Positions 18,569 through 21,625 of a DNA stretch of 64,000 nucleotides are shown in pieces. This DNA is from Roseivirga misakiensis (GTDB lineage Bacteria; Bacteroidota; Bacteroidia; Cytophagales; Cyclobacteriaceae), in contig NZ_MDGQ01000003.1 of NCBI RefSeq assembly GCF_001747105.1, positions 496,001 to 560,000 of the forward strand, given 5' to 3'. The notes below the pieces were generated by a model. It was not told the DNA's origin and searched no databases. It was given only the letters and a program-made list of their open reading frames with translations. Within the stretch, counting starts at the first letter, position 1. Each line of letters starts with the position of its first letter. A program made the position numbers and the translations under genes.

Positions 18569-18598
18569 AAAAAAGCCCCGCAAATGTGGGGCTTTTTT
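18569..18598. terminator. Bidirectional terminator, probable original terminator of tRNA-Ala
   Basis: Stem AAAAAAGCCCC / GGGGCTTTTTT around a short G/C-closed loop. It ends paralogue 3 on the plus strand. The left copy of the tRNA 3'-end repeat begins inside its T run, so before insertion of the island the tRNA-Ala transcript (minus strand) would have run straight into this hairpin. Confidence 0.85.
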
Positions 18599-18613
18599 GT
18601 GGAGAATACCGGA
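18593..18613. repeat. Left copy of the tRNA-Ala 3'-end repeat (att-like)
   Basis: Compared with 21544-21564, 19 of 21 bases are identical; the core GTGGAGAATAcCGGA (18599-18613) differs at one base from the copy inside the tRNA gene. It is what a displaced tRNA 3' end looks like after site-specific integration. Confidence 0.6.
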
Positions 18614-18738
18614 TTAGTTTGTTTTTTGTATCAAATACACCTTTCTCTCTCATTTACAGATAGTTATATTTTCAATTCAATAGTGTGACTTTTTAACTCA
18701 AATCGCTTCTTAATGCTTTGTCAAAACTTAAGTGTGCC

Positions 18739-18757
18739 AATAGTTGTGACAACTATT
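18739..18757. promoter_or_regulatory. Perfect 19-bp palindrome upstream of abiH
   Basis: AATAGTTGT-G-ACAACTATT: two perfect 9-base arms around one base, 71 bases before the abiH start codon. Size and symmetry fit an operator for a dimeric repressor. No regulator gene is present in the island, so the binding protein would be encoded elsewhere. Confidence 0.5.
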
Positions 18758-18827
18758 AGGCCAAAACAGTTAATTCAAAAGTTGTTCAAGAATTGAGTTC
18801 TAACTATTATTAAATAGATATCACACA

Positions 18828-20012
18828 ATGAATAGAGTTTTCCTTATCGGTAATGGCTTCGATTTAGCTCATGGTATGCCAACTTCTTTCGATGATTTTG
18901 TCAAAGACCTTATACGTTCTAGAATTGATCATGGTGTAGATTCAGAAAGTCAACTCGTTCAAATATCTCTTCCTGACCAGGTAGATGAAGGAGTCAAAAT
19001 AACATCCAAAGAGATAGACTTCACTAAACCAATCAATGATATCACCAATGAAATTCGCGTAAAATCTCTATTCAAAATAAGTAATCTTCACTTACCTGAA
19101 TTTCTAGAATTAAAATTAAGGAACAGTATAAAGTTCGAATACCCTAATAAGTTTTTCGCAACAGTCTTAAGTAATACGTCTGTTAACAACTGGGTTGAAT
19201 TCGAGCACAACTACTATAAACATTTCTTGAAAATCTTTAAGGGACACTATAAGAAAGAAGAATTTAGAATTAAGGCCATTCATTCACTCAACGAACAGTT
19301 CAATCAAGTAAAAGTTGAATTTTCCAATTACATAGCCAAGGTGAACCAATCAGCTCCTAAACAAAAGAGTGTTAGTCTTCAATCACTTTTTCTTAGTAAA
19401 AAAATAAAAGGAAAGGTGACTAGCATAGATGATATGACTTACGAGCACCATGAAGTATCAGAAGTTCTCATTCTGAATTTCAATTACACTGATACTGTGC
19501 GGCGTTATAGCTTACCTGAATTTGATACAGCCGGAAAAATGATCACACAAGCACAAGTTATAGACATACATGGCGAAGCTGGTAACCCTAATAACCCAAT
19601 AATTTTTGGGTACGGAGATGAAATGCAAGAACATTATTCTCAAATAGAGGCGCTAAATGATGATAAGGCTCTAGAACATTTTAAATCTATTCATTACTCA
19701 AGAACTGAGAATTACCACCAACTAGAGAGCTTTTTAAAAAAAGGCAGTTACTGGGTCGATATAATTGGACATTCATGTGGGCTGTCAGATCGAGTTTTAT
19801 TAAAAGAAATATTCGAACCTAACAATTGCAAAGGAATTACAATTCGACACCATGACGGAAAGGGTAATGGTTCTGGTGAGCTTCATCATAGAGAAATATT
19901 TACACATATTGCAAGATGTTTCTCTCCAGAGAATAAATCAAAAGTTCGGTCAAAAGTAATTCCATTCAGGGTAGAAAACAGATGTCCGCAACTGACAGGT
20001 TCAGTTTCTTAA
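18828..20012 (+). CDS. AbiH-family phage abortive infection protein
   Basis: A 394-residue protein with the family's defining start, FLIGNGFDLAHGMPTSFDDF (about residues 5-24). Later conserved blocks are also present: LILNFNYTDTVRRY (about 219-232), VIDIHGEAGNPNNPIIFGYG (about 245-264) and DIIGHSCGLSDRVLLKEIF (about 310-328). AbiH was first described as a lactococcal abortive-infection protein; its biochemical activity is not established. No signal peptide is seen, so it is cytoplasmic. It sits alone on its strand segment with a palindrome upstream, next to a NYN nuclease gene. Function is inferred from family membership. Confidence 0.88.
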   Translation: MNRVFLIGNGFDLAHGMPTSFDDFVKDLIRSRIDHGVDSESQLVQISLPDQVDEGVKITSKEIDFTKPINDITNEIRVKSLFKISNLHLPEFLELKLRNSIKFEYPNKFFATVLSNTSVNNWVEFEHNYYKHFLKIFKGHYKKEEFRIKAIHSLNEQFNQVKVEFSNYIAKVNQSAPKQKSVSLQSLFLSKKIKGKVTSIDDMTYEHHEVSEVLILNFNYTDTVRRYSLPEFDTAGKMITQAQVIDIHGEAGNPNNPIIFGYGDEMQEHYSQIEALNDDKALEHFKSIHYSRTENYHQLESFLKKGSYWVDIIGHSCGLSDRVLLKEIFEPNNCKGITIRHHDGKGNGSGELHHREIFTHIARCFSPENKSKVRSKVIPFRVENRCPQLTGSVS

Positions 20013-20151
20013 TTAACGCTATTTGGATACTCATGTAACGTACAACAACGAGTGCGTCACACAATTTAAGCTTTATGCATTTTAAAAAATTACTAATCGA
20101 CAACCGTTTGCATATGTGTCATACAATATAGTCCCATGAGTTCATTGCTCA

Positions 20152-20187
20152 GTTTTCCACATTTTTCGTAACGTTTTCCACATTTTT
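20152..20187. repeat. Two 15-base direct repeats, 21-base period, in the NYN gene leader
   Basis: GTTTTCCACATTTTT occurs at 20152-20166 and again at 20173-20187, each followed by a CGTAA-like end. A period of two helical turns would put a bound protein on one face of the DNA. They lie 115-150 bases upstream of the NYN gene. Confidence 0.6.
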
Positions 20188-20267
20188 ACGTAAAAATTTG
20201 TGTAAGCTGGACATATTAATTTAAATTTGTCCTTTCCCTTACCCCCCTATGATGAAATATTCTTAGG

Positions 20268-20295
20268 CCAAGCTCTCTCATAAGGAGAGCTTTTA
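20268..20295 (+). terminator. Hairpin with T-rich tail directly before the NYN start codon
   Basis: An 8-bp stem AAGCTCTC / GAGAGCTT with a 7-base loop, followed by TTATTTTA and then the ATG at 20302. It resembles a weak terminator or attenuator. The 3' arm contains AAGGAG, so folding would also hide the only Shine-Dalgarno-like sequence. Confidence 0.45.
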
Positions 20296-20301
20296 TTTTA
20301 T

Positions 20302-20941
20302 ATGCACACAGCAAAAAAGAGAGTCATTGTCTATGTCGATGGTTATAATTTCTATTATGGCCTGAAGGATGCTAATTGGAAAAAGTACTATTGGCTTGAT
20401 CTCGTAAAATTCTTTGATTCGTTCATGAATGAAGATCAAGAATTGGTATCCGTCAAATACTTCTCGGCACCAACAAAACACAACGGCAAATATCAACGGC
20501 AAATATCAACGGCAAAGTGCCTTTTTTTCGGCTAATAAACTCAACAAACGTTTCAAATTGATACTAGGCAGCTATGTACTTAAAGATGTAAGTTGTCAAA
20601 TATGTCACAGCGATTTTCAAGTTCCAGAGGAGAAAAAAACGGATGTCAATATTGCAACAAATATGATTGGCGATTGTATTTATGAAAAATGCGACCAGAG
20701 TATAATAGTCTCTGGAGATTCTGACTTAACCCCACCTATAGAATTTATCAAAAACCATAGTCCTGATCATCAAGTTTATGTTTACTTTCCTCCAAGAAGA
20801 GCAGGGTTGCACCTTAAATCTGTGTGTGATAATGCACTTTATTTAGAGCACTGGAAGAAAAGATTCAAAACAAGCCTCTTACCAGATTCTATAAAAACCA
20901 AGAGTGGCTTTGAGCTAAAAAGGCCAACATCTTGGGTGTAA
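20302..20941 (+). pseudogene. NYN-domain (LabA/PIN-like) ribonuclease gene, frameshifted by a 13-bp duplication
   Basis: The first frame (20302-20535) encodes RVIVYVDGYNFYYGLKD, the start of a NYN domain with its metal-binding Asp. It stops soon after a 13-base tandem duplication (20481-20516). The rest continues one frame over to 20941 and contains KTDVNIATNMIGD and QSIIVSGDSDLTPPIEFI, the other acidic motifs. Removing one 13-base copy joins the frames exactly and gives a 208-residue protein with the junction NGKYQRQSAFFSANK. NYN proteins are predicted or proven single-strand RNases. The gene is either recently broken or switched off in a reversible way. Confidence 0.85.
20481..20516 (+). 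repeat. 13-bp tandem repeat, 2.8 copies, inside the NYN gene
   Basis: CAACGGCAAATAT occurs at 20481-20493 and 20494-20506, followed by a partial copy CAACGGCAAA at 20507-20516. Thirteen is not a multiple of three, so each gain or loss shifts the reading frame. Confidence 0.95.
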
Positions 20942-21120
20942 GGAATAACAACAATTAGCTTTTGCCATTGCTCACAAAAGAATATATTCAAATTTAAGAA
21001 TTCATATTTCTTCTCATCCCCCTTTAACCTGCCCAAATTAATCCAAAAAGCTCTGCTTTAATAACATATTCAATTGAATCCCGATTTTCATAGTCGGTTA
21101 AACCCTAAAAGTTCAATTAT

Positions 21121-21471
21121 ATGTCGTATAACATAATAAAAACTCCCTATAACACTTATCACCCTCTTAAGTATTTACTCAATCCTTTGATCTCAATAAG
21201 TGCCTACAAAAGCGACCTTAGTGAGAGAAAATTCGTTGGGAGATCTACAATCTCTTGGTCGACCTATATGAGAGATAAAAAAATTAAGGTTTCAGACGAC
21301 ACTTCTATATCCGAAGAAAGATTACAAATCTATGCTGCCTTGTGCCAAACAGAAATAACAACATTGCTAAACTATAAAATAGAAGTCAAGAAAAGTAATA
21401 AGAGCGGAGGATACTCTGTTCAACAGCATTTCGCGGCTTGGAAAAAGTACCATAGATATTTCAAATATTGA
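21121..21471 (+). CDS. Orphan 116-residue protein in the island
   Basis: I do not recognise this protein. It is soluble and basic, without signal peptide or membrane helix. The N-terminal half is rich in Tyr, Ser and Ile, with Lys-rich stretches later (IEVKKSNKSGG) and an aromatic end (AAWKKYHRYFKY). Codon and base use are A+T-rich like the rest of the island. It starts at an ATG after a 180-base gap in which I see nothing else. It could be a small DNA- or RNA-binding protein judging only by charge. It might also be a chance ORF, though it is open for its whole length and well placed. Confidence 0.5.
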   Translation: MSYNIIKTPYNTYHPLKYLLNPLISISAYKSDLSERKFVGRSTISWSTYMRDKKIKVSDDTSISEERLQIYAALCQTEITTLLNYKIEVKKSNKSGGYSVQQHFAAWKKYHRYFKY

Positions 21472-21550
21472 ATTGGTCCAAATCTGACACCAAACTGTCA
21501 CAAAATAAAACTCGCAACTTATTGATTTACAATTATTTATGGGTTTTTAG

Positions 21551-21625
<75 letters not shown>

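Follow-up and report, generated by a model that had tools for sequence, protein, structure and literature searches.

The islet at tRNA-Ala(GGC)

The window, the whole 64,000-nucleotide stretch of the Roseivirga misakiensis genome that was analysed, carries a tRNA-Ala(GGC) gene on the minus strand (21550–21624, ARAGORN), which is the target of an insertion. As the preliminary description had claimed, a 21-base sequence at the 3' end of this gene (21544–21564) recurs 2,951 bases away (18593–18613) with 19 of its 21 bases identical. Contained in the repeat are the 15-base block that ends the tRNA (attL-like core, 21550–21564, minus strand) and a displaced copy of this block with one mismatch (attR-like core, 18599–18613, minus strand), both located by sequence match. 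Past the displaced copy lies a hairpin with T-runs (18569–18598, no strand assigned; identified from sequence and folding), presumed to be the former terminator of the tRNA, and its strength was confirmed by folding (-15.8 kcal/mol, z -5.25). On the tRNA side, the left-end hairpin and T-run of the islet (21501–21549, minus strand) fold weakly (-3.9 kcal/mol, z -0.8), so that the lack of a terminator reported for this side applies to the window copy, but not to its five sister islets described below, which have a strong hairpin there. The segment is also A+T-rich as described, with a G+C content of 34.1% in the islet against 41.7% and 41.9% in its flanks.

All genes of the islet are on the plus strand. 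The abiH gene (18828–20012, 394 aa) was recognised with PF14253 (E 9e-27; 95.2 bits against a curated cut-off of 30.9) and with the PADLOC AbiH model (E 5e-6), in agreement with its earlier naming, and is followed by two copies of a 21-bp unit (20152–20193) that lie between it and the NYN gene. For the NYN nuclease gene, the earlier assignment stands as a HEC-09-type match, whereas the division of the gene over two overlapping frames had been missed: a front piece (20302–20535; PADLOC HEC-09, E 8e-21) and a rear piece in another frame (20429–20941; PADLOC HEC-09, E 1.5e-39; PF01936) meet at a 13-bp tandem repeat of 2.8 copies (20481–20516, plus strand). With its NYN gene frameshifted at this repeat, the window copy looks partly decayed and may be immobile today. 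The last gene before the tRNA is orf116 (21121–21471).

Related islets at three tRNA genes

The insertion at tRNA-Ala proved to be part of something larger than first described, namely a family of six islets of 2.4–3.4 kb built on one shared plan, found in four genomes of the genus Roseivirga at three tRNA genes (Ala-GGC, Ser-GCT and Leu-GAG), with an Ala and a Ser islet both present in the R. misakiensis genome. Beside that of the window, the tRNA-Ala islets of G004, G010 and G016 and the Ser(GCT) islet came from a tRNA search of 59 relatives together with an orf116 search, while the sixth, at tRNA-Leu(GAG) in G004, was revealed by the box pattern described below. The parts of the plan are a displaced tRNA end, a hairpin and T-run after the tRNA, TGTCACA boxes at the distal end and cargo that differs between islets; lengths including the displaced copy are 2,951 bases in the window and 3,325, 2,447, 3,183, 2,628 and 3,448 bases in the others. 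The displaced 15-base tRNA end is present in all six islets with no or one mismatch. The shared block runs from TCC (tRNA base 60) to base 74 in all six and has one inner mismatch in the window; in G010 and G016 it extends 5' by a few more bases. The T-stem of the window tRNA-Ala is self-matched and equals that of G017, whereas the displaced copy has another version; on this comparison of sequences, the exchange in the window probably lay 3' of the inner mismatch.

Chance recurrence of such ends was assessed in the R. misakiensis genome with the 15-base 3' ends of 38 distinct tRNAs, allowing up to two mismatches and up to 12 kb downstream (803, 9,340 and 9,541 bases for three of the tRNAs). 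Sense matches were obtained for 5 of the 38 tRNAs and antisense matches for none. Apart from the Ala and Ser islets, the matches come from a GIY-YIG unit (tRNA-Val), a 124-bp array (tRNA-Glu) and a duplication enclosing host-type genes (tRNA-Met).

Islet-free relatives support the proposal that an element without its own integrase was inserted at the tRNA. A terminator-like hairpin directly after tRNA-Ala, the arrangement that the preliminary description had suggested looking for, was seen by eye in 13 of 14 islet-free loci of the genus (seven of these hairpins were also folded), the exception being G008. The synteny comparison covered the four Ala islets, and past each of them lie genes homologous to those that follow tRNA-Ala in islet-free relatives, not always as the very next gene. 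Beyond the window islet, the adjoining gene has homologues in G001, G013 and G017, which are not strictly empty since a small GIY-YIG unit follows their tRNA, and a gene about 3 kb further on has homologues in G009 and G011. Downstream homology of the G010 islet is with G009, G011 and G017. For the Ala islet of G004, the homology is with G011 and lies ~3.3 kb past the islet, compared with a distance of 0.2 kb from the tRNA in G011 itself, so that other DNA lies between, and for the G016 islet it is found with G006, G008 and G018, ~2 kb past the islet; the terminator past the G016 islet is identical to that of the empty G018 site in 30 of 31 bases. At tRNA-Ser, a different gene follows in G003 and G005.

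The cargo is different in each islet, and four of the six contain clear matches to PADLOC defence models, many of which represent candidates rather than proven systems: HEC-09 in the window (AbiH being weaker), PDC-M11A/B in the Ala islet of G004, PDC-M19A/B in G010, and PD-Lambda-2_C and cll in G016. Weak matches were obtained for the Ser islet (PDC-S05, E 6e-4) and the Leu islet (4TM effector, E 2e-4), the other proteins of these two islets having no PADLOC match. Among nine window genes flanking the islet, eight were without a PADLOC match and one matched at E 0.0099. Judged by these profile matches, the islet cargo appears exchangeable and mostly defence-like.

Contrary to its earlier reading as an orphan ORF, orf116 is a shared component, with homologues in five of the six islets (29–66% pairwise identity), always directly behind the tRNA and in antisense orientation; the Leu islet lacks it. 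The orf116 search found it in 4 of 59 genomes. Two of the five members matched HTH_26 at 20.5 bits, below the cut-off of 22, and the other three, including that of the window, gave no match. The structural model is poor (pLDDT 57.6) with a helical middle, and its best Foldseek matches are mostly Cro/C1-type helix-turn-helix repressors, with E above 0.05; the model suggests a probable Cro/C1-like helix-turn-helix protein. In 390 genomes of the family and 390 of the order, samples that overlap each other and the relatives, only four further, distant matches were found (G312, G304, G273 and G693), and these were rejected as islets, no tRNA being present in their ~3.2-kb loci. A scan of viral contigs with the orf116 alignment confirmed no relative, and tblastn with one member found nothing in phage and plasmid collections.

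Hairpins and boxes at the islet ends

The left hairpins of five islets have folding energies of -16.4 to -20.5 kcal/mol (z -5.3 to -7.7), the window copy being the exception. In the alignment of the six, 7 of 15 pairs show changes in both partners and 91% of cells pair, and four of five measures exceeded all 500 shuffles, the number of further pair types not doing so (197 of 500); the structure was derived from the same alignment, which favours this covariation result. A covariance model run over 59 genomes placed the six islets, from which it had been built, first (E up to 7e-9), followed by hits at 3e-5 and weaker. The left hairpin and T-run would constitute a replacement terminator for the tRNA, decayed in the window copy. 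As a link to viruses, the hairpin palindrome was tried and rejected: among 30 viral-contig stretches containing it, none had a tRNA within 300 bases and none matched a home-made integrase profile.

Two loci resemble the islets in part. At tRNA-Leu(CAA) of G011 (contig C11, L186), a possible partial islet has a displaced tRNA end, a hairpin and a second tRNA end ~2 kb on, and contains one 509-aa ORF without a Pfam or PADLOC match and no TGTCACA boxes. At tRNA-Pro(GGG) of G008 (contig C1, L187), a 523-aa tyrosine integrase comes after a similar hairpin directly 3' of the tRNA, and no displaced copy was detected in the sequence up to the end of the contig.

At the opposite end, 13 ten-mers (one mismatch) and 19 twelve-mers (two mismatches) are common to the right 302 bases in the first five islets, against at most 0 and 1 in 200 shuffled and 200 random genomic sets, and these shared words are versions of TTGTCACA. 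The window has one exact box (18745–18752) and one with a single mismatch (18733–18740), both on the minus strand. The word TGTCACA, which was chosen after the data had been seen, occurs 19 times in the six islets within the 200 bases that precede the core, all on one strand, against an expectation of 0.06 derived from 17 occurrences in 345,865 bases of own-genome loci; the counts are 1 in the window and 4, 3, 3, 4 and 4 in the other islets, those of the Leu islet not being independent because that islet was found through its boxes. None of 200,000 random windows contained three or more. Distances of the boxes are commonly near 135 and 123, then 86 and 76 bases, with G016 and the Leu islet differing, and their position is constant whether the cargo points toward or away from the distal end. 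A left box, inverted relative to the right ones, is found within one mismatch in four of the six islets (21496–21503, minus strand, in the window).

The paired-box pattern was present in 14 of 19 genomes of the genus and in none of 40 others, a reversed control pattern giving two matches. By eye, its 23 places comprise seven islet ends, two sites by a G011 integrase, three sites after tRNA genes without an islet (in G003, G005 and G018) and 11 promoter-like sites. In the latter, TGTCACA-N3-TGTCACA stands in a conserved promoter-like context (L124, L125 and L128, for example), and this pair is probably the site of a genus-specific regulator. TGTCACA is thus also a host motif, and the case for arm-type sites depends on the place of the boxes.

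Proposed mode of movement and comparable elements

No recombinase of the tyrosine (PF00589) or serine (PF00239) type was found inside any of the six islets, and no transfer gene was named among their main ORFs in the Pfam and PADLOC scan. PF00589 frames in the host genomes are of 329, 306 and 397 aa in R. misakiensis, the last after tRNA-Arg(CCT), of 300, 297 and 517 aa in G004, of 307, 238, 306, 369 and 429 aa in G010, and of 329 and 297 aa with two fragments in G016; judged by size, only Xer-sized tyrosine recombinases recur in all four hosts. Serine recombinases occur in 6 of 19 genomes of the genus and, among the four hosts, only in G016. A DUF6538 tyrosine integrase of G011, found by the box pattern, has four TGTCACACA boxes upstream and is a candidate helper only, to be treated as a lead. 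Its four homologues (G006, G020, G034 and G001) have neither such paired boxes nor a tRNA in their 1.5-kb flanks; none of the tRNA cores of R. misakiensis was found in the region upstream of the G011 gene (two matches occur elsewhere in the locus), and a viral-contig scan with this integrase confirmed no relative. The searches made found no helper integrase for the islets.

Tyrosine-type insertion at tRNA 3' ends is the best fit to these data, and on balance the islets are probably small non-autonomous defence cassettes that bring their own attachment site and are moved by an integrase provided in trans. Entry at the tRNA 3' end would proceed by site-specific recombination inside the 15-base block, which spans the T-loop end to base 74. 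The tRNA would thereby stay intact while its original end and terminator are moved away from it, and the cassette, which codes for no recombinase, would bring a replacement terminator hairpin. The repeated distal TTGTCACA boxes and the weaker inverted box near the tRNA would serve as arm-type sites for a tyrosine integrase, coming from a phage or other element and acting in trans, and the orf116 protein would most likely control excision or silence the cassette. Since the DNA that an integrase requires appears to be kept and the enzyme is absent, the islets would work like helper-dependent elements. Counterpoints are the lack of a helper in the searches made, the single exact box of the window copy, the TGTCACA pairs before host genes, the absence of orf116 from the Leu islet, the weak defence matches of the Ser and Leu cargo, and the need for one integrase to accept three different cores. 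Recent movement of islets was not seen, as the comparison contained one genome per species.

The islets might instead be remnants of integrase-bearing elements that lost the integrase and kept their ends (CIMEs in the usual sense). The split NYN gene, weak hairpin and single exact box of the window copy would suit such decay, as would the G008 tRNA-Pro hairpin with its adjacent integrase and the box-less partial islet of G011; we nevertheless regard it as unlikely, given that an integrase is missing from all six islets, which are of similar size, and yet five of them have orf116 in the same place and five have three or four boxes, and that the searches turned up no integrase-bearing counterpart with these boxes next to a tRNA. 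Host XerC/XerD, aided by accessory proteins on the boxes, could perform the recombination, an explanation to which only Xer-sized enzymes being apparently common to all four hosts (identity by size) lends something; that the islet cores are tRNA ends, presumably unlike dif, makes it very improbable.

It is also improbable, though less so, that a regulator of the host or of the islet uses the TTGTCACA boxes as operators and that the islets moved otherwise, for example by homologous exchange of flanks. The paired word does stand before host genes at 14 places other than the islets and the G011 integrase, and the boxes lie upstream of a nearby gene start in the window, G010 and G016. In the Ala islet of G004 and the Ser islet, however, they are located past the cargo's 3' end and still keep their spacing from the core. 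All six islets, at three tRNAs, are marked at this one end, and homologous exchange explains neither the first insertion nor the repeat. Returning to movement by an integrase in trans, it is quite possible, and we propose it more tentatively, that such minimal cassettes relate to tRNA integrases as MITEs do to transposases. Each would be a unit of ~3 kb that combines a complete attachment site (core, repeated arm boxes and terminator hairpin) with a dedicated small DNA-binding protein and defence cargo that can be swapped, and a borrowed, core-tolerant integrase would have spread these units over several tRNA genes.

Among known systems, CIMEs are, in the excerpt of PMC5704250 available, flanked by attL and attR and devoid of integration or transfer genes, and the islets resemble them in having the 15-base block at both ends (six of six) and neither integrase nor transfer genes. 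The same excerpt defines CIMEs as decayed and usually in tandem with a helper, whereas the islets occur singly and at several tRNAs, and have a dedicated small protein and a replacement terminator in common. The islets are possibly CIMEs; a descent by decay from an ICE or IME would be conjectural, the G008 integrase element being similar in its hairpin only. Dehalococcoides ssrA islands without an integration module, suggested as CIMEs in the part of PMC3146451 drawn on here, are alike in their tRNA-like target, 3'-end direct repeat and integrase-free cargo, but occupy a single site, in tandem with islands that do have an integrase, and belong to a serine recombinase system. Defence islands at tmRNA and tRNA genes, such as Pseudomonas I55, also combine a 3'-end target, direct repeats and defence cargo with an absence of transfer genes, but encode a tyrosine integrase and AlpA (PMC12595487, in extract). 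CALIN cassette arrays and MITEs follow a like logic, keeping recombination sites and borrowing the enzyme, with other recombinases and other sites (PMC11389934, in extract). The TIGER/Islander software, as the pertinent section of PMC12424338 states, insists on at least one integrase gene per tRNA-targeted island, which the islets lack, so that integrase-less cassettes would be missed in that large catalogue. In the portions of the literature that our search returned, no such integrase-free tRNA-end cassette family was seen. Integrase-less cassettes are nevertheless recurrent in the Roseivirga genus group, with defence-like genes as cargo; if mobile, they would spread defence genes in units of two or three without an enzyme of their own, and their shared ends provide a search key for further cassettes and for their helper.

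Other small elements were observed at tRNA ends. GIY-YIG ORFs of about 84 aa with their own terminator lie directly 3' of tRNA-Ala in 5 of 17 other loci of the genus (L032, L038, L044, L045 and L047) and in three tandem copies at tRNA-Val(TAC) of R. misakiensis (L094), some with repeated tRNA ends, and are perhaps a second type of minimal tRNA-end element. The 124-bp tandem array at tRNA-Glu(TTC) (L102, contig C4 of G000) contains four incomplete copies of the tRNA-Glu end, with terminators. In G048, which belongs to another family of the order, 14.4 kb separate a tRNA-Ala gene from an exact copy of its 3' end (L066).
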